Source of the DNA: Chloroflexota bacterium
Lineage (GTDB): Bacteria > Chloroflexota > Anaerolineae > Promineifilales > Promineifilaceae
Direction: 5' to 3'
Length of the DNA stretch: 8,642 nt
NCBI GenBank assembly: GCA_008501785.1
Contig: QQUD01000904.1
Location: forward strand, 1 to 8,642
The notes beneath the pieces are model-generated. The model was not told where the DNA came from and did not search any database. It was given only the letters and a program-made list of their open reading frames with translations. Made by a program: the position numbers and the translations under genes. Below, piece by piece: positions 2 to 8,642 of this stretch (position 1 is the first letter of the stretch; the number at the start of each line of letters is the position of its first letter).

Positions 2-565
2 ACGAAGCTGGAGGGAGAGTTTATTGCCCAAAAGTAGAGGGAGGCGGGAGACATTCCGATTTCGATTTTTAGACCAGCGGGCATTTACGGACCAGGGGAT
101 TTGCGGTTTTTGAAGTTGATTAAGTCGGTTAAAAACGGCCGTTTTCTCATGATCGGCTCCGGCGAAATCGACTACCACATGGTGTATATTGATGATTTAG
201 TTGATGGCATTTTGCTTTGTGGCGAAAAAGAAGAAGCCGTTGGCAATATTTACATCTTGGCAGGTGAGGAAATCGTTAAACTCAACCGGCTGGTGCAAAT
301 TATATCTGATCTAGTTGGCACACAGCCACCTCGGTTCAAAGTGCCGTTTAAACCCGTTTATCTAGCAGGGCATTTGTGCGAAATTGTGTGCAAGCCATTT
401 GGTATTAGTCCACCCATATTCCGTCGTCGTGTTGATTTCTTCCGCAAAACACGCTCGTTTGACATTTCCAAAGCTAAAAATGGGCTAGGCTATCAGCCCA
501 AAGTTAATCTGGAAACAGGATTAAAAAGAACCATTGATTGGTATACAAAAGAAGGATTGCTGTAA
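2..565 (+). pseudogene. NAD-dependent epimerase/dehydratase (extended SDR), 3' part, with an in-frame stop
   Basis: C-terminal part of an extended short-chain dehydrogenase/reductase, probably acting on a nucleotide sugar in the cytoplasm. Codons from base 2 read TKLEGE, then a TAG at 35-37, then REAGDIPISIFRPAGIYGPG. TKLEGE resembles the segment carrying the catalytic Lys of the family's YxxxK motif; the Tyr and the Rossmann domain lie before the window. RPAGIYGPGD (71-100), VYIDDLVDGI (about 184-213) and the C-terminal DISKAKNGLGYQP segment (461-502) are typical substrate-domain landmarks. The TAG interrupts sequence that is family-like on both sides, so the gene looks broken by a nonsense change, or there is a sequence error. 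A TTG at 101 could only restart a fragment lacking the cofactor domain. Its stop (563-565) overlaps the next ATG, so the two genes are co-transcribed. Family assignment is firm; exact substrate is unknown. Confidence 0.8.
132..145. repeat. AACGGCCGTT palindrome, copy 1 (14-bp perfect)
   Basis: AAAACGGCCGTTTT is a perfect 14-bp palindrome inside the epimerase remnant, read there as Asn-Gly-Arg with flanking codons. Confidence 0.85.
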
Positions 566-1326
566 TGGTTGAGATAAATGAACAAGCAGTAAATAAAACG
601 CCACTTTCGGAACAATTAAGCAGCTCTGGTGGTTCAGCACTCGATCGCTACCGGCAAAAAGCGGCTGGCGATATGTCAGTGATGCGTTTGTTGCAATATG
701 AGTTGGGGATGACCCTATTCTCAAATATGGCCGGTGGGGCGGGCTATTTATTGCGGAAATGGTTTATTAGCTCACTCTTTGGCGAGGTTGGCAGCGGCCT
801 GATATTGGGGCGCGGTGTGACTTTGCGTCATCCTGGCAAGATGGCGATTGGGAAAAATGTGGCGATTGATGATTATGTGATGATTGATGCCAGTGGTGCC
901 GGTGAAAATGGCGTTCGCATTAATGATCAAGTGATCGTTTCCAGAAATTGTGTCGTTCAAGGGAAAACTGGTTATGTTCATATTGGTAAGAAGGCCGATA
1001 TTGGTTGCAATACAATGATTACATCCGCGACCGGTATTTCCATAGGCAAATATGTTTTGATTGGTGGGAATTGTTATATCGGCGGAGGGCGCTACTTTGC
1101 AGATAAATTAGATGTGCCCATGATGATGCAGGGCGTCTTTTCCAAAGGACCGGTTATCATCGAAGATGATGTCTGGTTAGGTGCCAATGTGACAGTTCTA
1201 GATGGCGTGCGTATTGGAAAGGGGAGCATCATTGGTGCGGGGGCAGTTGTTACCAAAGATATTCCAGACTATAAGATTGCGGTTGGTATGCCAGCCAGAG
1301 TTATTGGAGATCGACAGGCCAAATAA
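565..1326 (+). CDS. Hexapeptide-repeat acyltransferase (LbH, WcaF/maltose O-acetyltransferase-like)
   Basis: 253-residue left-handed beta-helix acyltransferase, probably O-acetylating a sugar or glycan precursor with acetyl-CoA. Residues 1-75 are a helical, low-similarity N-terminus. Hexapeptide repeats run from about 80 to 232, with repeated IG/VxIG-type turns (AIGKNVAI, HIGKKADIG, SIGKYVLIGG, RIGKGSIIGAGAVVTKDIP). The end, VGMPARVIG (240-248), is the usual closing strand of the family. The ATG at 565 is chosen because it overlaps the upstream stop (TAATG) and has GAAGGA at 551-556, 8 nt away; the in-frame TTG at 538 lies inside the previous gene and has no good ribosome site. The loop before the KGPVIIEDDVWLG segment (172-193) has no His where maltose-acetyltransferase relatives often carry the catalytic one, so the acyl-transfer chemistry is less certain than the fold. 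Downstream gene follows after 49 nt. Confidence 0.88.
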   Translation: MVEINEQAVNKTPLSEQLSSSGGSALDRYRQKAAGDMSVMRLLQYELGMTLFSNMAGGAGYLLRKWFISSLFGEVGSGLILGRGVTLRHPGKMAIGKNVAIDDYVMIDASGAGENGVRINDQVIVSRNCVVQGKTGYVHIGKKADIGCNTMITSATGISIGKYVLIGGNCYIGGGRYFADKLDVPMMMQGVFSKGPVIIEDDVWLGANVTVLDGVRIGKGSIIGAGAVVTKDIPDYKIAVGMPARVIGDRQAK

Positions 1327-1375
1327 GCGTCTGATCTCTCAAAATGCAAACAACAACTTGCTAAAGGTTCATCTC

Positions 1376-2374
1376 ATGGAAAAAACACAGGCAGCCTTGG
1401 AACCACCTACAAAACCAATGGCTACACCGCAAGAAAATTTACGAAAAACTGTTTTTAGCGTGCTAAAAATAGTTGTTTCTGCTGGACTCATTTTTTGGAT
1501 TTTGCGAGGCACCAATTTAGCTGAAATCTGGTTTGCTTTTCAAGCCGCCGATTTTCGTTTACTCGCATTAGCTTTTTCACTACACATCTTTGGTTATATG
1601 TATAGTGCCTTTCGTTGGCGTTTATTATTACGGTCTCGTGGTTCAGATTGTTCGATAGTGTTTCTAATGATCTCCTACCTTGTTGGGGCATTTTTTAACA
1701 ACTTGCTGCCATCGACTATTGGGGGCGACGTTTACCGTGCATATGATTCCTATCGATTAGGACAAAGCAAATCAAGTGCGCTTGCGGTTGTATTTGTCGA
1801 TCGGTTTTTGGGTTTATTGGCTTTAATGGTGTTTGCGCTATTGGCTTTGTTAAGCTCCAATAAACTGACTGAAAATATTCCATATCTATTTGTATGGGTT
1901 CTTTTGGGGACGTTGGGCATGTCTGCGTTTGTCTGGCTTATTTTCTGGCCTCCCAAATGGTTGCCCGGTCTAATTGCCAATATGAGGCTGCCATTTGGCA
2001 ATAAAATCAAGGGAATTATTCAGGCCTTTCTGGATTTTGAAGGGCAACGTACCGTTTTGATTAAGGCCTTTTTATGGTCTGTTATGTTACAGGCAAACGT
2101 TATTTTGCATTATTATTTGATTGCCCTGGCATTAGGATTGCCCATCCCATTTTTAAGTTTTTTCCTGATTATTCCTCTGGCAACTGTTATCACAATGCTG
2201 CCAATTTCTGTAAATGGCATCGGTGTTCGTGAAAACATCTATATCTTTTTCTTCGCCTCATTTGCAGTGACAAAACCCGAGGCAATTGCGTTTGCCTGGG
2301 CAGCTTATGGTGTTCTTTTGCTTCAGGGTGTGATGGGTGGAATCATTTACGCTTTTCGAAAACATCGTGATTAG
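1376..2374 (+). CDS. YbhN/UPF0104-type polytopic membrane protein (LPG synthase TM-domain family), copy 1
   Basis: 332-residue inner-membrane protein of the flippase-like UPF0104 family (PF03706), the transmembrane half of lysylphosphatidylglycerol synthase. Relatives are proposed to flip or handle lipids and lipid-linked intermediates; substrate here is unknown. Residues 1-22 are soluble, followed by some eight hydrophobic segments (about 25-43, 62-77, 97-112, 136-160, 168-190, 230-254, 258-278, 286-325). Family landmarks are present: RWRLLLR (80-86), LPSTIGGDVYRA (111-122), the Asp-Arg of VDRFLGL (141-147) and LPISVNGIGVRE (275-286). The start ATG has AAAGG at 1363-1367, 8 nt upstream; a longer frame opening at 1202 would overlap the acyltransferase and has no hydrophobic or family sequence before this Met. 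Lies 49 nt after the acyltransferase, likely same transcript, and is closed by the hairpin at 2428-2456. A divergent second copy is at 7263. Confidence 0.87.
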   Translation: MEKTQAALEPPTKPMATPQENLRKTVFSVLKIVVSAGLIFWILRGTNLAEIWFAFQAADFRLLALAFSLHIFGYMYSAFRWRLLLRSRGSDCSIVFLMISYLVGAFFNNLLPSTIGGDVYRAYDSYRLGQSKSSALAVVFVDRFLGLLALMVFALLALLSSNKLTENIPYLFVWVLLGTLGMSAFVWLIFWPPKWLPGLIANMRLPFGNKIKGIIQAFLDFEGQRTVLIKAFLWSVMLQANVILHYYLIALALGLPIPFLSFFLIIPLATVITMLPISVNGIGVRENIYIFFFASFAVTKPEAIAFAWAAYGVLLLQGVMGGIIYAFRKHRD

Positions 2375-2427
2375 GTAATGTGTGCCGTTTCCACTATTTT
2401 TGTTTGAGATGAAACTCTATAATTTAC

Positions 2428-2456
2428 AAGTCAGCTCTCGTTTAGAGGGCTGACTT
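2428..2456 (+). terminator. Rho-independent terminator-like hairpin after the first operon
   Basis: AAGTCAGCTCTC (2428-2439) pairs with GAGGGCTGACTT (2445-2456): a 12-bp stem with one T-G wobble and a 5-nt loop GTTTA. It begins 54 nt after the stop of the membrane-protein gene and is followed by a short, impure T tract (ACTTTGTT). It probably ends the epimerase-acyltransferase-YbhN transcript, although leak into the glycosidase gene 32 nt further on is possible. Confidence 0.7.
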
Positions 2457-2487
2457 TGTTGCATAAAGTTGAGGGCATTGAATAGAT

Positions 2488-4632
2488 ATGATTGTTCAAC
2501 TCTTTTTTTTCGGATTGTCGCTTCTTCTTCGAGGGGAAGGTGTTTTGTTACGTCGCAAAGATGTGGCATTTGGGATGCGATTGTTGGGCTGGTTTTTGTG
2601 TATGGCTGGCTGGTGGAGCATGTTGGTTGGGTTTGGCGCGTTTGCGCGCCTCTGGCCGATTTTTCCTGCTGCAATCATTGGCGCTGTTTTGCATCATCGT
2701 TGGCATGATGGGGCACAAGAATATGCAGTTCTTATTGGCGTTGATCTCGTGATGGTTATGGCCACTGGGCTGCTGGCTTTGCCTCCGCTTGCTTTTGTGG
2801 AGCTGATTGGTATCGCATTTTTGTTAGCCCTGGTGGGTTTGATAATTGAACTGGCCGCACGATTTACAACGCAGCGGATTAGCTGGTTGTGGTTGTCGGG
2901 GCTTGGTGTTGTTGTCCTGTTCGCACTTGTCGTGTTTCCCGTGACTCGTGGCACGATGGTGCGTATTTTTGAATCACGGTTTTTGTATTTGGTGCCTGAG
3001 GTGTTGGTTGCGGATGTGACGCCTTTTCCAACGCCGCGTCCCACATTAACGCCATCACCTACTGTGGCAGTAGTGGAGACGGTTGAGGTATCTCCAACGA
3101 TAGTTGTGACACCTGTTCCCGAGGAGTCGACGATGACGCCTGTGGAGACGCCTGTTGGGGAGGAAACGGCCGTTCCCTCCCCCAAAACCATCGGCCAACA
3201 ATGGACTCCATACCTTGAATGGGAATATCCCAACCCATCCTATCAAGGCAATCCATTTGATTTAGCAGCATCCGCAACCTTCACCCATGCAGAAAGTGGC
3301 GAAACAATTTCCACAAACCTGTTTTATGCTGGTGATGACACCTGGCATTTGCGTTTTACCGGCACATTGCCAGGTATTTGGTCATTCGAAACGATCAGCA
3401 ACGACCCAGAACTTGATGGGCATCAAGATGTCGTGCAAATTGAACACAACCCAGGCGTGGCTGGATTTGTCACCCAATATGAAAATAAATGGGGACGAAC
3501 AGGCATTGATCGCGCATTTGTACCGCAATATTTAATGATTGGTGGACCCCAAACCTATTATCAAAATCCTGGAGAACTTGATTATATCCGGCAGACGTTT
3601 ATGGTTGAGCATGGTTTTAATGGTGTGCATACTTTGGTGTTTTGCCGCTGGTTTGATATTGAGCAAAAACAATGTAGTCGGGTTAATGTTGCTGATCCCA
3701 ACCCAGATTTGCGCACCTTTGAGGCATTAGAGGACCTCATTACAATGGTTCACGCCAATGGGGGCGTGGTGCATATTTGGATGTGGGGAGACGATTCTCG
3801 CAGTGAGAATCAAAAACGATGGGGAATTAATAGTGAAGCTGATAAACGGCTGCAGCGATATATTGCTGCGCGACTTGGTCCGCTCCCCGGCTGGACGATG
3901 GGATATGGTTATGATCTGTATGAATGGGCAACCGGAGATGAACTGACTGAATGGCATGACTATATGCAAGCACATCTAGGATGGTCACATTACCTTGGCG
4001 GTCGATCTCAACCAGACCCGGCTATATCCCAGCTATCTGAAGAATTGGATTATTCAGCTTATGAGCAGTTAGAGCCAACCTATGATGATTTTGTGGCTGC
4101 TTTTGACGATAGACCGTATAAACCCTCTTTTTCTGAAGACCGTTTTCGGATTCAAGAAGATTCTCGATATGAAAATCGGAATTGGTCGATGGATGAGGTG
4201 CGGCTTGCGCTTTGGCACTCGACATTGGCTGGTGGGGTGGCCAATATCTGGGGAAACATATCAATCGATAAGGGTGCGAATGGTGGTGAAAGCATTTCTG
4301 AGCCGTTCCCAAATCCTGAGCAAGTAAAAACGTATGCTTTGTTTTTTGAAAATCGCTTTTGGGTAGATATGGTGCGGTGCAATGAGTTGACAGATGGGTA
4401 TTGTTTAATGCGGCCGACAAATGCACATTATGTTTTTTATGCTGAAGATGCGGATTCGGTTCAGATGGATTTGACGGGGATGTTGGAAGGGGAAACGGCC
4501 GTTGCCATAGACACCCGGTTGGCATATGAAGAAATTTCTTTAGGTGAACTCAATCCAGAAGATCAAATATGGACTGCTCCCTATCAATCTGATTGGGCGA
4601 TTGCAGTTGGAGAATTCCCTCGAAATCCATAA
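2488..4632 (+). CDS. Membrane-anchored DUF5060 / TIM-barrel (DUF4038-like) glycosidase-like protein
   Basis: 714-residue protein in three parts. Residues 28-153 contain about five hydrophobic helices (roughly 28-50, 56-68, 80-98, 101-121, 134-152). Residues 176-237 are a Pro/Thr/Val-rich spacer (PTPRPTLTPSPT at 181-192). From W239 comes a DUF5060-like beta domain (PYLEW, GNPFDLAASATF, AGDDTWHLRFTGTLPGIWSF, to about 320), then a TIM-barrel region like DUF4038/apiosidase-type glycosidases (about 325-630) and a C-terminal beta domain. Candidate catalytic acids by position are E479 (in YDLYEW) and E550 (in KPSFSEDRF); neither is proven. The enzyme part is presumably extracytoplasmic, trimming or cleaving a surface glycan. 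ATG 2488 has GAGGG at 2471-2475, a rather long 12 nt away. The helical block is unusual: the paralogue at 8435 has only a signal peptide. The coding strand of the helical block is G/T-rich, changing abruptly to A/C-rich after the palindrome at 3165. Confidence 0.82.
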   Translation: MIVQLFFFGLSLLLRGEGVLLRRKDVAFGMRLLGWFLCMAGWWSMLVGFGAFARLWPIFPAAIIGAVLHHRWHDGAQEYAVLIGVDLVMVMATGLLALPPLAFVELIGIAFLLALVGLIIELAARFTTQRISWLWLSGLGVVVLFALVVFPVTRGTMVRIFESRFLYLVPEVLVADVTPFPTPRPTLTPSPTVAVVETVEVSPTIVVTPVPEESTMTPVETPVGEETAVPSPKTIGQQWTPYLEWEYPNPSYQGNPFDLAASATFTHAESGETISTNLFYAGDDTWHLRFTGTLPGIWSFETISNDPELDGHQDVVQIEHNPGVAGFVTQYENKWGRTGIDRAFVPQYLMIGGPQTYYQNPGELDYIRQTFMVEHGFNGVHTLVFCRWFDIEQKQCSRVNVADPNPDLRTFEALEDLITMVHANGGVVHIWMWGDDSRSENQKRWGINSEADKRLQRYIAARLGPLPGWTMGYGYDLYEWATGDELTEWHDYMQAHLGWSHYLGGRSQPDPAISQLSEELDYSAYEQLEPTYDDFVAAFDDRPYKPSFSEDRFRIQEDSRYENRNWSMDEVRLALWHSTLAGGVANIWGNISIDKGANGGESISEPFPNPEQVKTYALFFENRFWVDMVRCNELTDGYCLMRPTNAHYVFYAEDADSVQMDLTGMLEGETAVAIDTRLAYEEISLGELNPEDQIWTAPYQSDWAIAVGEFPRNP
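3157..3182. repeat. AACGGCCGTT palindrome, copy 2, within a 26-bp near-perfect palindrome
   Basis: The core AACGGCCGTT (3165-3174) is flanked by GGGGAGGA and CCCTCCCC; 12 of 13 base pairs of symmetry hold (the 3164/3175 pair fails). It lies in the linker of the membrane-anchored glycosidase, read as Glu-Thr-Ala-Val, ten residues before the DUF5060 domain. Confidence 0.85.
4491..4506. repeat. AACGGCCGTT palindrome, copy 3
   Basis: Core 4494-4503; outer GG (4491-4492) and CC (4505-4506) continue the symmetry after one mismatch. It lies in the C-terminal beta domain of the same glycosidase, again read as Glu-Thr-Ala-Val. Confidence 0.8.
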
Positions 4633-4660
4633 GAGAAAATTCAATTAACCCCCATCATTC

Positions 4661-4699
4661 CGGCGAAAATCTGCATTTTACCAATGCGGATTTTCGCCG
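4661..4699 (+). terminator. Strong hairpin after the membrane-anchored glycosidase
   Basis: CGGCGAAAATC (4661-4671) pairs with GATTTTCGCCG (4689-4699); one T-G wobble (4672/4688) and GCATT/AATGC extend it to a 17-bp stem around the 5-nt loop TTACC. It starts 28 nt after the glycosidase stop and is followed by CATTATTT, a weak U tract. The best reading is a transcription terminator for the 2488-4632 gene. Because both arms contain A/T runs, it could function from either strand, but there is no gene on the minus strand here to need it. Confidence 0.72.
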
Positions 4700-4759
4700 C
4701 ATTATTTGCACAATGTAGATCGTAAGGTTCGTTTTAACAATTATTCGTTATGATTTGAT

Positions 4760-4799
4760 TCAATAATCATCTTAAAATGGAAAACAGATGATTTATTGA
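4760..4799. repeat. Imperfect AT-rich inverted repeat
   Basis: TCAATAATCATCT (4760-4772) is complementary to AGATGATTTATTGA (4786-4799) with a single extra T on the right arm, around a 13-nt loop. It could be an operator, a transcript hairpin in a long leader, or chance in AT-rich DNA. Confidence 0.4.
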
Positions 4800-4921
4800 T
4801 TAAATTATTTAGAAAAGTAATTCTGAATAAACGGATTTAGCGGACGACACACTCTACTTCTTAGCAGCAATACCCATAAATACGTTATTTCATCACTGCA
4901 TTTTAAAGTAAACCAAACAAG

Positions 4922-4953
4922 ACAATTTGATAACCAGATAAGGTTGAAATTGT
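4922..4953. promoter_or_regulatory. Spaced inverted repeat upstream of the deacetylase, possible operator
   Basis: ACAATTT (4922-4928) and AAATTGT (4947-4953) form a perfect 7-bp inverted repeat with 18 nt between. The right arm overlaps the poor -35 candidate for the 5041 gene, the position expected for a repressor or activator site. No known regulator motif is recognised and such short AT repeats can arise by chance. Confidence 0.25.
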
Positions 4954-5040
4954 GGTACCTTCACATGCAAATTTTATAACTGAGTCTTGAATTACAAGTC
5001 AAAGTTATTATTATTTCTAAATTAACCAACAGGTCTCATT

Positions 5041-6177
5041 ATGTTACGCAGGAAGTTTGCTAAAGCACTTAATGAAATCCCGATTGAAATTCAACGATTA
5101 CGAAAGAACAAGTATCCGAGATTTGTAACAACGTCAATTAACCGTTTTTTTGTAGATGAAGTGCCTGTTTTCATGTTCCACAGCGTCACAGCGGCGCAAT
5201 TTGAATTCCAACTTCGATATTTAAAAGAAAATCAATACGAAACATTAACTTTGAAACAGTTTATGGCTTTTTTGTCTGGTGCGTTTTCTCCAATAAACCC
5301 ATCAGTACTGCTAACTTTTGACGATGGTGATAAAAGTTGGTACGAAGTTGCATACCCCTTGCTGCAAAAATATGATTATCATGCCGTTGGCTTTTTGGTA
5401 CCTTCCTACATTTGCGAAGAAACCAGCCTTGATAGTGCATGGATGTCTTGGGATGAAGTGCGCGAGATAGAAAGTAGTGGTGTAATGGAGATGGAATCAC
5501 ATACATTCCACCATGCTCGCGTGTTTACAGGAAGACAGGTGATAGATTTCTATCATCCTCAGTATAACTTCAATCCTTTGAATTTGGATATTCCCTGGGT
5601 TATGAGGGGAGATCAATTTCATAATCAATTAGATTGGGGAACGCCGATTTATCAACATGAATCTCTTTATGCAGGCTCTGTTCGATATTGTGACGACGAA
5701 GTGATTCGTGAGAAGTGTGTTGCCTGGGTAAAGCGGCAAGGTGGTGTTAAATTTTTCAATGAGGCCAATTGGCAGAAAAAGATTCAAGCATTTTATAAAT
5801 CCCTTGATGCAGAACTTACAAATCAGGTCCCAAGGTATGAATCCTCAGAGGATAGAGATGCTGCGATTTATTCTGATTTGCTGAAAGCAAAACATACTTT
5901 AGAGGAAAAGCTGCAAAAACGAATTAGCCATCTTTGTTATCCTTGGGGGGCAGGGAGCGAAAAAGCAGTCAATTTGAGTCGCCAGGCAGGGTATGAAAGC
6001 AACTTTTGGGTTGTTAATAATGTGAGGAATTGTAATCGTCAAGGCGACTCGCCTTTTTATAATTCCCGCTTGAAGGATGATTATTTAGTTCGATTACCGG
6101 GGCAGGGGCGCCAACCATTGTCAAAAATTTTTACAATGAAAATCTCTCGCCGGTTTCAAAAAACGAATATTTATTGA
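5041..6177 (+). CDS. Polysaccharide deacetylase (NodB-like, CE4), with a long insertion
   Basis: 378-residue NodB-homology protein, expected to remove N- or O-linked acyl groups from a glycan with a divalent metal. The opening strand is VPVFMFHSVT (41-50). Motif 1 is TFDDG (92-96), giving the catalytic base Asp and a metal Asp. Motif 2 is SHTFHH (153-158), with metal ligands H154 and H158. Motif 3 appears as YPWGAGSEKAV (300-310), after which AGYES (316-320) is typical. Between motifs 2 and 3 lie about 140 residues, more than in a compact NodB domain; 165-280 is hydrophilic, Trp/Tyr/His-rich and without recognised domain. No convincing signal peptide is visible: the first 25 residues are strongly basic with no long hydrophobic run, so it may act in the cytoplasm or be peripheral. 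ATG 5041 has only a weak AGGT (5031-5034) as ribosome site. Next gene starts 29 nt downstream. Confidence 0.85.
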   Translation: MLRRKFAKALNEIPIEIQRLRKNKYPRFVTTSINRFFVDEVPVFMFHSVTAAQFEFQLRYLKENQYETLTLKQFMAFLSGAFSPINPSVLLTFDDGDKSWYEVAYPLLQKYDYHAVGFLVPSYICEETSLDSAWMSWDEVREIESSGVMEMESHTFHHARVFTGRQVIDFYHPQYNFNPLNLDIPWVMRGDQFHNQLDWGTPIYQHESLYAGSVRYCDDEVIREKCVAWVKRQGGVKFFNEANWQKKIQAFYKSLDAELTNQVPRYESSEDRDAAIYSDLLKAKHTLEEKLQKRISHLCYPWGAGSEKAVNLSRQAGYESNFWVVNNVRNCNRQGDSPFYNSRLKDDYLVRLPGQGRQPLSKIFTMKISRRFQKTNIY

Positions 6178-6206
6178 TTGTAGTTATAGTTGTATAGGAT
6201 GTACCA

Positions 6207-7238
6207 ATGAAAGCAAAAAAAGTAACAATCGGCGTTGTTAATTACAATGGCATCAATGTTTTACCAGAAACTTTGCATGCGGTAAACAATCTCACGTATC
6301 CTTATTTTGACATAATGATTGTTGATAACGGCTCCACAGATGGGAGTCGTGAATGGGTTGAAGCGCGTTATCCTCAAGTCTGCATTTGTGCTTTAGGAGA
6401 AAATGTTGGTTTGCCAGGTGCCCGAAATATAATCATCCAAGAAGCAAAATCAGACTACCTATTTATAATGGATAATGACATTAGCGTTGAACCTAATATG
6501 CTTACGCAATTGATGGACGTGATGGAAAAAGTTGATGGGGTTGGTGTTTGCCACCCTGAGATTTGCGATGAAAATGACCCAAGTGTCTACCATTACAATG
6601 GCGGTCATATTCATTATTTATGCTCCTTAATCTCTCGCAAAAAACCATTACCCTATGCAGAAAGACCTTTGTATGAACAATTTGATGTAATTTCAGGTGC
6701 GGCTATGTTAATGCGTCGTCAAACTGCGTTAGAAATTGGCGGATTTGATGCTGACTACTTCTTTAATTGGGAGGATGGTGATTTTACTGCTCGCATGACA
6801 TTGGCTGGTTATAAGTGCTTGAATATCCCACATGCGTTTGTGCATCACAGAAGCAAACCTCGGGGAACCTCCAAAGCATTTTATCAGGTGCGTAACCGCT
6901 GGTATTTCATTTTAAAATTATTTAGCTGGCGTACGATCTTACTAATTACACCCATGCTCGTTTTGTTTGAGCTGACGCAAGCTGGTCTGTTACTTCTTAA
7001 AGGTGCTGGAAAAGAGTATTTACGAGGTACTGTTGCTGTTTTTAAAGATATGCCCATGATTTTAAAGAAGAGGAATGATTTTCAAAAATTGAAAATTGTA
7101 AAAGATGAAAAATGGCTGCATCGTGGAGAGATGTTTGTTCCTAGCCATTTGATGGACCGAAAAATCATGGATATCTTGAACAAAATAGTGTGTAATTGCT
7201 TTAACTTCTATTGGCATTGCGCAACAGTCTTGCTTTAA
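6207..7238 (+). CDS. Family 2 glycosyltransferase (GT-A fold, rhamnosyltransferase-like)
   Basis: 343-residue GT2 enzyme that transfers a sugar from a nucleotide-activated donor to a glycan or lipid-linked acceptor at the cytoplasmic face. The nucleotide-binding start is VTIGVVNYNG (6-15) followed by IMIVDNGSTDGS (36-47) and GENVGLPGARN (64-74). The metal-binding DxD is DND (89-91), in LFIMDND. Acceptor-side motifs are SGAAMLMRR (163-171), GGFDADYFFNWEDGDF (178-193) with the ED pair E189-D190 as likely catalytic base region, and HHRS (213-216). After residue 220 come a basic amphipathic stretch (QVRNRWYF) and a hydrophobic segment (243-264), suggesting membrane attachment. AGGA at 6196-6199, 7 nt before ATG, supports the start. 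Placed 29 nt after the deacetylase and 24 nt before the membrane protein, so one operon is likely. Donor and acceptor cannot be read from sequence. Confidence 0.9.
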   Translation: MKAKKVTIGVVNYNGINVLPETLHAVNNLTYPYFDIMIVDNGSTDGSREWVEARYPQVCICALGENVGLPGARNIIIQEAKSDYLFIMDNDISVEPNMLTQLMDVMEKVDGVGVCHPEICDENDPSVYHYNGGHIHYLCSLISRKKPLPYAERPLYEQFDVISGAAMLMRRQTALEIGGFDADYFFNWEDGDFTARMTLAGYKCLNIPHAFVHHRSKPRGTSKAFYQVRNRWYFILKLFSWRTILLITPMLVLFELTQAGLLLLKGAGKEYLRGTVAVFKDMPMILKKRNDFQKLKIVKDEKWLHRGEMFVPSHLMDRKIMDILNKIVCNCFNFYWHCATVLL

Positions 7239-7262
7239 TAATTTGCATTTTGGGAAAATTCT

Positions 7263-8258
7263 ATGAAATTTACAAAACAGAACCTTCTGTCGATTGTGAG
7301 GTTGGTGATCACAATTGGACTACTATATTTTTTAGTCAGCAGGATTGGAACTGAACAGCTTAAAACAGTATTCAATTCGCTGAACCCTATATATTTGGCG
7401 ATTATCTTTGGGTTGTTGTTAATTGATACAATCATTCGCTCTCTGAATTGGCGGTTATTGTTACAGGTTCAAAGCTACCAAATACCTGTTGCTAAAATGA
7501 TTTATTCTTATATGGTAGGTGGTTTTTTTGGTGCATTTATTCCTTCGAGTTTGGGAACCGATTTTGCAAGAGCTTTGCTTGTTACTCAACAGCACAAGGT
7601 AACTTCTCATAAATCGATGGCTGCGATTGTAGCGCTTAATTTAATCAATTTGCTTGCTCTATGCATCATTGGATTGATAAGCTCCGTTCTTGTCCTTTTA
7701 ATAATGGATAATAGCAGTTTCGCCATTTTGGTTATTCTGGTTTCGGCTGCATATCTTGTATTGTTTCCTGTTTTGGTGAAAGGGCGGATTATTTATCCAG
7801 AAAAATTGATGAAAAATTCGATTATTTCGAAGTTTATGCGAAAGTTACAGGATTTTTCGGATGCACTGAATCAATATGCTGTCCAGCGCAATATTTTGTT
7901 TAAAGCAATTGGGTTAGCGCTTATCAATCAATCTTTTAGTATTATTATTGTTTATTCAATATCCTTATTCTTAGATTTGAAAATAGGGTTTGTTTATTTT
8001 GTCATGTTTATTCCGATTATTACGATTAGCAGACTGATTCCCATTTCTATCGCTGGATTAGGTGCAGAGCAGGGGATTTTTGTCTTTTTCTTTGCACAAG
8101 TGGGTGTTTTGCCTGCGGAATCTTTTTTGATTTCCCTGGTGCTCTCAATTTCTATTCTTCTTTTCTCGCTATCGGGTGGGGTTTTGTATACGGCCGTTAA
8201 CCTATTCTCATTTATAAATTCACCCAAACAGGTTTTGTATAATCAAAAAGAAAGTTAG
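7263..8258 (+). CDS. YbhN/UPF0104-type polytopic membrane protein, copy 2 (divergent)
   Basis: 331-residue relative of the 1376-2374 protein, with the same length and order of about eight hydrophobic segments. Shared landmarks are NWRLLLQ (62-68), FFGAFIPSSLGTDFARA (88-104), PISIAGLGAEQGIFVFFF (260-277) and a hydrophobic end (286-309) before a basic tail. It differs where the family is usually conserved: GGDVYR of copy 1 is GTDFAR, the Asp-Arg of VDRFLGL is replaced by an NLINL stretch (126-130), and GIGVRE becomes GLGAEQ (265-270). It may therefore handle another substrate or have lost one activity. ATG 7263 has GGGA at 7252-7255, 7 nt upstream. It follows the glycosyltransferase by 24 nt and precedes a DUF5060 glycosidase gene, the same order as copy 1. 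An ACGGCCGT palindrome lies within codons 309-312. Confidence 0.85.
   Translation: MKFTKQNLLSIVRLVITIGLLYFLVSRIGTEQLKTVFNSLNPIYLAIIFGLLLIDTIIRSLNWRLLLQVQSYQIPVAKMIYSYMVGGFFGAFIPSSLGTDFARALLVTQQHKVTSHKSMAAIVALNLINLLALCIIGLISSVLVLLIMDNSSFAILVILVSAAYLVLFPVLVKGRIIYPEKLMKNSIISKFMRKLQDFSDALNQYAVQRNILFKAIGLALINQSFSIIIVYSISLFLDLKIGFVYFVMFIPIITISRLIPISIAGLGAEQGIFVFFFAQVGVLPAESFLISLVLSISILLFSLSGGVLYTAVNLFSFINSPKQVLYNQKES
8190..8197. repeat. ACGGCCGT palindrome, copy 4 (8-bp core)
   Basis: 8-bp core only (left flank T, right flank T). Near the C-terminus of the second YbhN-type protein, read as Thr-Ala-Val after a Tyr. Confidence 0.75.
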
Positions 8259-8434
8259 AATTCCGTCACTGCTTTATTTTGCGTTTCTCTAGTACTTTAT
8301 TCCTGTTGTGAATTCCTTTAATTGCGTTTTAATCATCTAGGAGTGTGACAAGCTGTTGAATAGAATGTTTCCTTGTTTGTGCCAATACCTTTTTTCCTGA
8401 AATAAATTTTGTAGTATGCATAGGAGCAGAAATA
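8259..8434. promoter_or_regulatory. Intergenic leader before the second glycosidase; weak promoter candidate
   Basis: 176 T-rich bases without a gene or a convincing terminator. TAGTAT at 8412-8417 could be a poor -10, but no -35 stands at the right distance, so the glycosidase may be read through from the upstream operon. The only clear site is the ribosome-binding AGGAG at 8422-8426. Confidence 0.3.
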
Positions 8435-8642
8435 GTGAAAAATAATGTATTCAAGATTGTTTATGTGTTGATTTTTATTTTATTTGTCCCCCTTTTTGTA
8501 TCGAGTTCAGAAATACCGGAAATTCGGGCGGAAACGGCCGTTATATTTCCACATCAAAGTAGCACACTTTGGTCCCCTTATTTGGAATGGTCCCTTACAA
8601 ATTCATCTTTTTCAGGCAATCCATTTGACCTTATTGCTACCG
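8435..8642 (+). CDS. Secreted DUF5060-type glycosidase, 5' end only (cut by window)
   Basis: 69 codons of a second DUF5060 protein, running off the window. GTG start with AGGAG at 8422-8426, 8 nt upstream. Residues 1-24 form a signal peptide: Lys/Asn-rich start, hydrophobic core about 8-22, then VSSSE as a possible cleavage zone. Residues 33-36 are ETAV, and W46 opens the DUF5060 domain (WSPYLEW, later SGNPFDL). About 15 of the 24 residues from W46 match residues 239-262 of the protein at 2488-4632, and ETAV lies nine residues before that Trp in both. So this is a paralogue without the membrane-helix block. Likely exported, acting on extracellular glycan. The rest of the enzyme lies beyond the window. 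It is 176 nt after the membrane-protein gene, with no clear terminator between. Confidence 0.82.
   Translation, partial: MKNNVFKIVYVLIFILFVPLFVSSSEIPEIRAETAVIFPHQSSTLWSPYLEWSLTNSSFSGNPFDLIAT
8533..8542. repeat. AACGGCCGTT palindrome, copy 5
   Basis: Between signal peptide and DUF5060 domain of the second glycosidase, read as Glu-Thr-Ala-Val; shares the 13 bases GGAAACGGCCGTT with copy 2. Confidence 0.82.

Follow-up and report, generated by a model that had tools for sequence, protein, structure and literature searches.

The palindromic octamer ACGGCCGT, found repeatedly in an 8,642-nt stretch of DNA from a Chloroflexota bacterium (contig QQUD01000904.1; the whole stretch is called the window below), is very likely a highly iterated palindrome (HIP), that is, a genome-wide and lineage-specific word which is conserved in position over its eight bases and recognised by a putative sequence-specific protein. 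Within the Anaerolineae sampled, the octamer is characteristic of one order. It is conserved beyond codon constraint, is replaced by other palindromes in sister lineages and is dense in some viral contigs. HIP elements have been discussed for cyanobacteria, and Elhai 2015 (PMC4390886) leaves their function open. Literature searches, in a collection without most subscription papers, listed no paper whose title, opening of the abstract or inspected passages report the element.

The window contains five copies of ACGGCCGT, compared to 0.06 expected (standard deviation 0.23), a count that was not reached in any of 200 dinucleotide shuffles. Markov models of orders 1 and 2 give expectations of 0.049 and 0.037. 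Four of the five octamers extend to the 10-mer AACGGCCGTT, for which the Markov expectation is 0.006; the exception, at 8190, reads TACGGCCGTT. Of the six CGGCCG hexamers in the window, all but one belong to an octamer; the lone copy lies at 4411..4416 in a GCGGCCGA context. A scan of all palindromic 8-mers in the window finds none besides ACGGCCGT that reaches three copies. The window counts thus confirm what the original prediction, made from the letters of the window, had stated: a palindrome over-represented at five sites, four of them as the 10-mer, and a hexamer present six times, five times inside the longer site.

Genome-wide counts come from relatives of the window and not from its own genome. 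The survey covered a sample of the class Anaerolineae and one order; other classes and phyla lie outside it. A scan for two copies of AACGGCCGTT within 6–36 bases, made over one genome per GTDB species, returned at least 119 stretches. Among the 80 that were listed, 57 are titled Chloroflexi, Chloroflexota or Anaerolineae, -ales or -aceae. These 57 belong to 19 genomes, of which 18 hold 564–5060 copies of AACGGCCGTT and one holds 5; a reversed control is found in 1–42 copies in the same genomes. The remaining 23 listed loci, judged from pieces and not from whole genomes (39 of the 119 stretches are unlisted), hold two to three octamers in 3.5–8 kb, roughly what the search itself demands, and the occurrence of the word beyond Chloroflexota was rejected as a reading of them. 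In the class sample of 396 genomes, 20 carry at least 396 copies of AACGGCCGTT, three carry 79–149 and 373 carry at most 29. All 23 genomes with at least 79 copies fall in the order that contains genome G004. Across the 56 genomes of this order, the density of ACGGCCGT is 421–2102 per Mb in 30 (the high-density genomes), 155–179 in three and at most 132 in 23, with up to 15,176 copies in one genome; the carriers have few copies of the reversed control. The highest counts outside the order in the class sample are 430 and 408. The nearest named relative of a protein from carrier G011 is labelled Ardenticatenaceae bacterium (89%), with Candidatus Promineofilum at 67%.

The anatomy of the element is clearest in G011. 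In 400 kb of this genome, ACGGCCGT occurs 632 times versus 25 expected under an order-3 Markov model and is the most over-represented 8-base palindrome; in 580 kb, with the sites masked, 924 copies stand against 13 expected. Together with the window shuffles and Markov models, these counts exclude chance. The sites are dispersed. Their density is 1.60 per kb in open reading frames (ORFs) and 1.47 per kb outside, all three codon frames are used (T-A-V 318, x-G-R 166, x-R-P 79), and the spacing is exponential, or Poisson-like, with a coefficient of variation of 1.06. They are also spread evenly along genes, which rules out a preference for protein termini, so the linkers and termini noted for most copies in the window are not their location in general. 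The regular scatter of the sites, Poisson-spaced and independent of gene context, and a palindromic form that suits a dimer would fit an architectural site bound every ~0.5–1 kb by a nucleoid-associated protein or topoisomerase that organises the DNA. We consider such a role unlikely, because neither an invariant 8-bp motif nor a sharp difference between sister lineages is obviously needed for structure.

Deviations from the word are biased toward its edges. Variants at the outer bases are enriched in G011 (278 vs 94.6 expected) and G010 (96 vs 38.8), and inner variants are not (130 vs 180.5 and 26 vs 49.6, respectively). The inner deficit is uninformative because G086, which is without the element, also falls below expectation (15 vs 29.9). 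Substitutions within the 10-mer core are about as rare in G011 as chance would have it. The extension of the octamer to AACGGCCGTT varies by lineage, with a share of 0.82 in G004, 0.84 in G007, 0.35 in G011 and 0.06 in G009, so the predominance of AACGGCCGTT in the window resembles the G004/G007 form. Several other GC-rich palindromes (GGCGCC, GCCGGC, CCGCGG, GTCGAC and CTCGAG) are depleted in G011, with 4–48 copies vs 24–351 expected in loci L120–L139, where GATC is mildly depleted as well.

Positions of the octamer are retained between relatives far more often than those of GC-matched control octamers. The pairwise comparisons overlap in regions and hence are not independent. Over 109 kb of alignment at 79% identity, G010 keeps 150 of 184 G011 sites and G011 keeps 150 of 190 G010 sites, compared to 2432 of 8488 controls (29%). 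Between G011 and G001 (82% identity), the figures are 47 of 58 and 47 of 57 (control 636 of 2361), and between G001 and G010 they are 46 of 56 and 46 of 52 (control 627 of 2396). The more distant G009 (69–73% identity, ~7 kb) keeps 8/9 sites of G011, 9/12 of G010 and 9/11 of G001, with controls at 8–10%. A set of 29 loci, mostly of one gene, gives a more mixed picture. Among relatives with the A-type word (outer A, as in ACGGCCGT), G008 keeps 2/7 of the G011 sites, G388 and G003 keep 3/7, several keep 5/7–8 and G001 keeps 12/12; G410 keeps 1/7, and G198, G305 and G086 keep 0/7–8. The footprint is sharp: around 184 sites chosen in G011, per-base identity is 0.91–0.97 over exactly eight bases and 0.71–0.87 beside them.

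The retention exceeds what codon constraint would give. Where the amino acid is the same, site codons are unchanged in 95 of 96 cases in G001 (742 of 1112 for these codons at other places) and in 148 of 153 in G010 (1420 of 2142). At the protein level, conservation is barely higher at sites than elsewhere (96/98 vs 1112/1222 in G001; 153/168 vs 2142/2398 in G010). In the window, two sites, 3166 and 4495, fall within a DUF5060/apiosidase-like gene (2488–4632). The residues at 3166 differ in all three aligned DUF5060 relatives (39–45% identity) and those at 4495 in all four (39–61% identity), all from lineages without the octamer. This supports, without proving, the view that the DNA word and not the protein sets T-A-V at these two sites; it falls short of proof because the relatives are distant. 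Synonymous conservation and the differing DUF5060 residues together rule out shared protein ancestry or codon constraint as the source of the word. More broadly, pure mutation, composition, or codon or protein constraint, acting without any recognition of the site, has in its favour the mild excess of CGGCCG in some lineages without a sharp octamer (86 vs 47 in G054, 227 vs 160 in G086). As an explanation of ACGGCCGT it is hardly credible and is largely refuted by the masked Markov expectation in G011, by synonymous positions lying far above background while amino acids do so only slightly, by the rarity of the reversed control in carriers and by the differing residues at 3166 and 4495 in distant relatives without the octamer.

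Sister lineages use other words. In 18 of the 26 genomes outside the high-density group, surveyed over ~12–60 kb each, TCGGCCGA occurs 95 times in 60 kb of G113 (1.4 expected) and 75 times in G405 (0.9 expected), GCGGCCGC 85 times in G198 (2.0 expected) and TGCCGGCA 24 times in 27.6 kb of G408 (1.0 expected). CGGCCG with no or only slight outer preference is 3.4- to 7.6-fold enriched in G415 and G220 and, within the high-density group, in G169 and G296. A strong word was not seen in, e.g., G086, G305, G239 and G133, although the smallest samples could miss one. Edge enrichment of variants accompanies the word of G405 (16 vs 5.3) and is absent in G113 (6 vs 9.9) and G198 (10 vs 10.9); it was not encountered in G408. 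In a one-gene tree of 25 rows, G113 groups with G405 (98/96) and the two then join G198 (95/94); the branches of G113 and G405 are flagged as long by the program. The octamer TGCCGGCA had been chosen as a reversed control; it has 3665 copies in 4.0 Mb of G408 (noted at loci L260, L261 and L262) and, more weakly, 886 copies in 4.7 Mb of G349.

The word is also dense in some viral contigs. A paired-site scan of viral contigs gave 25 stretches, of which 15 have 1.19–3.72 sites per kb. Eight of these 15 are at least 5 kb long; in short pieces, the pair demanded by the scan weighs heavily on the density. A second scan, for three close octamers, gave 14 stretches, 13 of them new, and four of the new ones (one from a contig already found) have 1.5–3.5 sites per kb. 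Six viral pieces were examined for gene content. Portal and head-protease proteins are encoded in L348 (1.71 sites per kb), a tape measure protein in L358 (1.82) and a capsid protein in L364 (2.16); L341 encodes ParA, an anti-repressor, FtsK and a transglycosylase, L340 a helicase loader, and L360 two proteins without a match. The pieces L340, L341, L348, L358, L364, L371 and L376 have 1.7–3.7 sites per kb, some of them above the host range of 0.4–2.1.

The symmetry of the word, its sharply bounded footprint of 8 bp and the outer bases that differ between lineages point to a dimeric protein that would read the palindrome as double-stranded DNA. The specificity of this reader would differ by lineage, with a CGGCCG core in most and an outer A, T, G or no outer base. 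As to what the reading serves, a self-DNA address for repair, recombination or DNA surveillance is the most likely role, and we propose it tentatively; both the chromosome and resident phage DNA would gain by carrying such an address. A stronger form, which we find doubtful, is a self-DNA code that is independent of methylation. Here the dimeric reader would score the density of AACGGCCGTT, ACGGCCGT, TCGGCCGA, GCGGCCGC, TGCCGGCA or CGGCCG, and resident phages would have adopted the host word at the same or higher density to pass as self. The densities behind this idea are the 1.7–2.2 sites per kb of pieces with structural genes and up to 3.7 in other pieces of the viral collection. Alternatively, the word could be a DNA uptake sequence: competent cells would import DNA that carries the motif, recombination would restore and spread it, and sister lineages would speak dialects as the Neisseriaceae do. 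This is improbable, since uptake sequences are not known to be palindromic and the motif is as dense in some viral contigs as in the hosts. The density near 1–2 per kb, the restoration-like conservation and the lineage dialects do agree with uptake, and dialects are described for Neisseriaceae (PMC3630211).

Methylation-directed repair, the model of Elhai for HIP, is another explanation that we regard as possible but not probable. In this view, CGGCCG or the octamer would be marked by an orphan methyltransferase, and mismatch repair would then favour mutations that complete marked sites. Copies of the palindrome would build up, either as a side effect or because they signal strand discrimination. 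The density and the edge-biased deviations of G011 are as for HIP1, and relatives carry alternate palindromes, as in cyanobacteria (PMC4390886). Edge enrichment is missing in G113 and G198, however, and the GmC rule of Elhai, as we read it, predicts no outer A or T. MutL, used here as a rough marker of completeness, is found in 28 of the 30 high-density genomes but also in 22 of the 26 others, and was rejected as a feature that marks the carriers. Matches to the C5 methyltransferase family (PF00145) are missing from 14 of the 30 high-density and 16 of the 26 other genomes, which removes this family as a common cause; draft quality alone is unlikely to explain the 14 absences because MutL is present in 28 of 30. 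The best E-values for PF01555 are only 1.8e-5 to 5e-4 in G001, G406, G009 and G005. For three of these genomes, G009, G005 and G406, PF00145 gives no match and PF01555 nothing better than 6e-5; G005 is also without MutL. Thus, no methyltransferase family among those searched is universal in the carriers (HsdM and Eco57I types were outside the search). A missing enzyme is not fatal to the model, because HIP1 is also present in four cyanobacteria, outside groups A and B, in which no enzyme for CGATCG is recognised (PMC4390886).

A strong D12 methyltransferase match (E < 1e-40) is found in 26 of the 30 high-density genomes vs 11 of the 26 others, a difference uncorrected for kinship that speaks for methylation-directed repair. 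Two D12 proteins that were scanned match the Dam family model. The usual target of Dam is GATC, which is absent from the A-, T- and G-type octamers, and Dam was rejected as the reader. Four genomes, G415, G366, G416 and G220, lack any D12 match, and G415 and G220 have the bare-CGGCCG form. The element as a whole also suggests that a HIP-class palindrome may not require a C5 methyltransferase, a restriction on the leading model.

Measured against the checks proposed along with the original prediction, the Markov comparison of palindromes, run on G011, placed ACGGCCGT at the top of the 8-base palindromes, and the comparison of relatives found site codons kept above background. Counts near expectation, or copies confined to one locus, are not what the genomes of the relatives show. 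The parallel with HIP1 that was drawn there holds for density, dispersal, palindromic form and edge-biased one-off variants, and likewise for the excess of conservation over codon constraint and the different palindromes of relatives. Methylation, which had been offered as a possible role, is not supported as a general one, given the 14 high-density genomes without a C5 methyltransferase match, three of them also without a PF01555 match better than 6e-5; the search for an orphan methyltransferase gave no C5 or PF01555 family common to the carriers.

A number of observations weigh against a position-conserved word that is read by a protein and serves as a self-address. Retention is uneven: G009 sites are found in G011, G010 and G001 in only 8/15, 9/15 and 9/15 cases, A-type relatives in the 29-locus set keep from 2/7 (G008) to 12/12 (G001) of the G011 sites, and non-coding sites, few of which are comparable, are kept in 4/6 and 5/8 cases. 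Between G113 and G405 (68% identity), 2 of 6 TCGGCCGA positions are kept (control 13 of 373). None of 13 aligned positions with ACGGCCGT in relatives carries TCGGCCGA in G113 (plus-strand alignments only), which rules out a switch of outer bases at fixed sites. Since T-type sites (G113) and A-type sites do not coincide in the places compared, neither set was made from the other in place, and the two probably arose separately. In two of the 30 high-density genomes, G169 and G296, the count derives mostly from the bare-CGGCCG form. By their titles, the 19 named carriers are metagenome-assembled genomes, and completeness figures are absent for all genomes. As to the viral contigs, the density falls below one site per kb in 10 of 25 stretches from the first scan and in 9 of 14 from the second, and the contigs are a set selected by closely spaced sites; because the scans select for density, they establish that dense viral contigs exist and give no measure of how frequent these are. 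The self-address step draws on the viral contigs only, and the reader is a putative protein.

In the window itself (no strand is assigned to the sites), site 1 (135..142; AACGGCCGTT at 134–143) lies in ORF 101–565, where it is read as AAC GGC CGT (N-G-R). This ORF has no match in a Pfam search; we read it as the end of a sugar epimerase. The two sites in the DUF5060/apiosidase-like gene, site 2 (3166..3173; AACGGCCGTT at 3165–3174), read as ACG GCC GTT, and site 3 (4495..4502; AACGGCCGTT at 4494–4503), are both in the T-A-V frame. The same frame is used at site 4 (8190..8197), the TACGGCCGTT form, in an LPG_synthase_TM gene (7263–8258), and at site 5 (8534..8541; AACGGCCGTT at 8533–8542), at the beginning of another gene, which extends from 8435 to the window end. 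The 69-residue fragment of this last gene has no Pfam match, but over the printed residues it resembles the product of the DUF5060 gene (EETAV...WTPYLEW and AETAV...WSPYLEW). Sites 3166 and 8534 occupy matching spots of the two similar genes and may share a common ancestry. The earlier argument that the copies sit in four unrelated genes was therefore only partly right: sites 3166 and 4495 are in one gene and 8534 is in a similar one.

The DUF5060 protein of the window has a match of any kind in 11 of the 56 genomes of the order. The best, in G321, which is without the octamer, shows 61% identity over residues 236–711, and those in G415, G366 and G416 show 41–48%. From these matches and from the word itself, we infer that the window belongs to the carrier order. 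The window holds a polysaccharide gene cluster with two LPG_synthase_TM proteins (1202–2374 and 7263–8258) and two DUF5060-like genes (2488–4632 and, by resemblance only, 8435–8642), and this pairing suggests a duplicated module. A 17-pair, terminator-like hairpin lies 3' of the DUF5060 gene (4661–4699), but such sites are no commoner than in shuffles. A second hairpin, before the same gene (2427–2460), was seen by eye only and is absent from the list of terminator-like sites.

Among known systems, restriction-modification sites of the CGGCCG type are likewise palindromic recognition sequences. Restriction sites tend to be avoided in genomes; ACGGCCGT, in contrast, is strongly enriched, and no single enzyme family among those searched tracks it. 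Chi recombination sites are over-represented self-markers of genomes, as ACGGCCGT may be, but they are asymmetric and read on one strand, whereas ACGGCCGT is a perfect palindrome and so is not a Chi-type site. Known DNA uptake sequences are tied to competence and non-palindromic, unlike ACGGCCGT, which is also dense in some viral contigs. Being short, very frequent, conserved and split into dialects among relatives, the word nevertheless resembles the uptake sequences of Neisseriaceae and Pasteurellaceae. One promoter site bound by the dimeric Thermus repressor TTHA0973 begins with AACGGCCGTT (PMC6651687), so a repressor can bind DNA that contains this 10-mer. TTHA0973 has the consensus AACnAACGTTnGTT and binds at a small number of promoters rather than at thousands of sites (same source); it may point toward the type of dimeric protein able to read the palindrome.

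The closest likeness is to HIP1 (GCGATCGC) of cyanobacteria, a palindromic octamer with a CG-rich hexamer core, whose density per Mb ranges from hundreds of copies to thousands; variants that deviate once, in an outer position, and other palindromes in some relatives are described for HIP1 and alternate HIPs in PMC4390886. The element shares with this class its genome-wide excess, its dispersal (G011), its outer-base deviations (G011 and G010) and the existence of alternate palindromes (G113, G405, G198 and G408). It is not HIP1 proper, which is GCGATCGC in cyanobacteria: its word is ACGGCCGT, its core is without GATC, its carriers are Anaerolineae, and these have no C5 or PF01555 methyltransferase family in common. 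High density in some viral contigs is a further difference, as words beginning with 'phage' are absent from PMC4390886. This second case, independent of the cyanobacteria and from a different phylum, has viral carriers and several dialects in a single order, and so provides a comparative system. The reader's specificity should change where the dialect changes, and the protein should therefore be findable through binding experiments and through comparison of the gene sets of the lineages.

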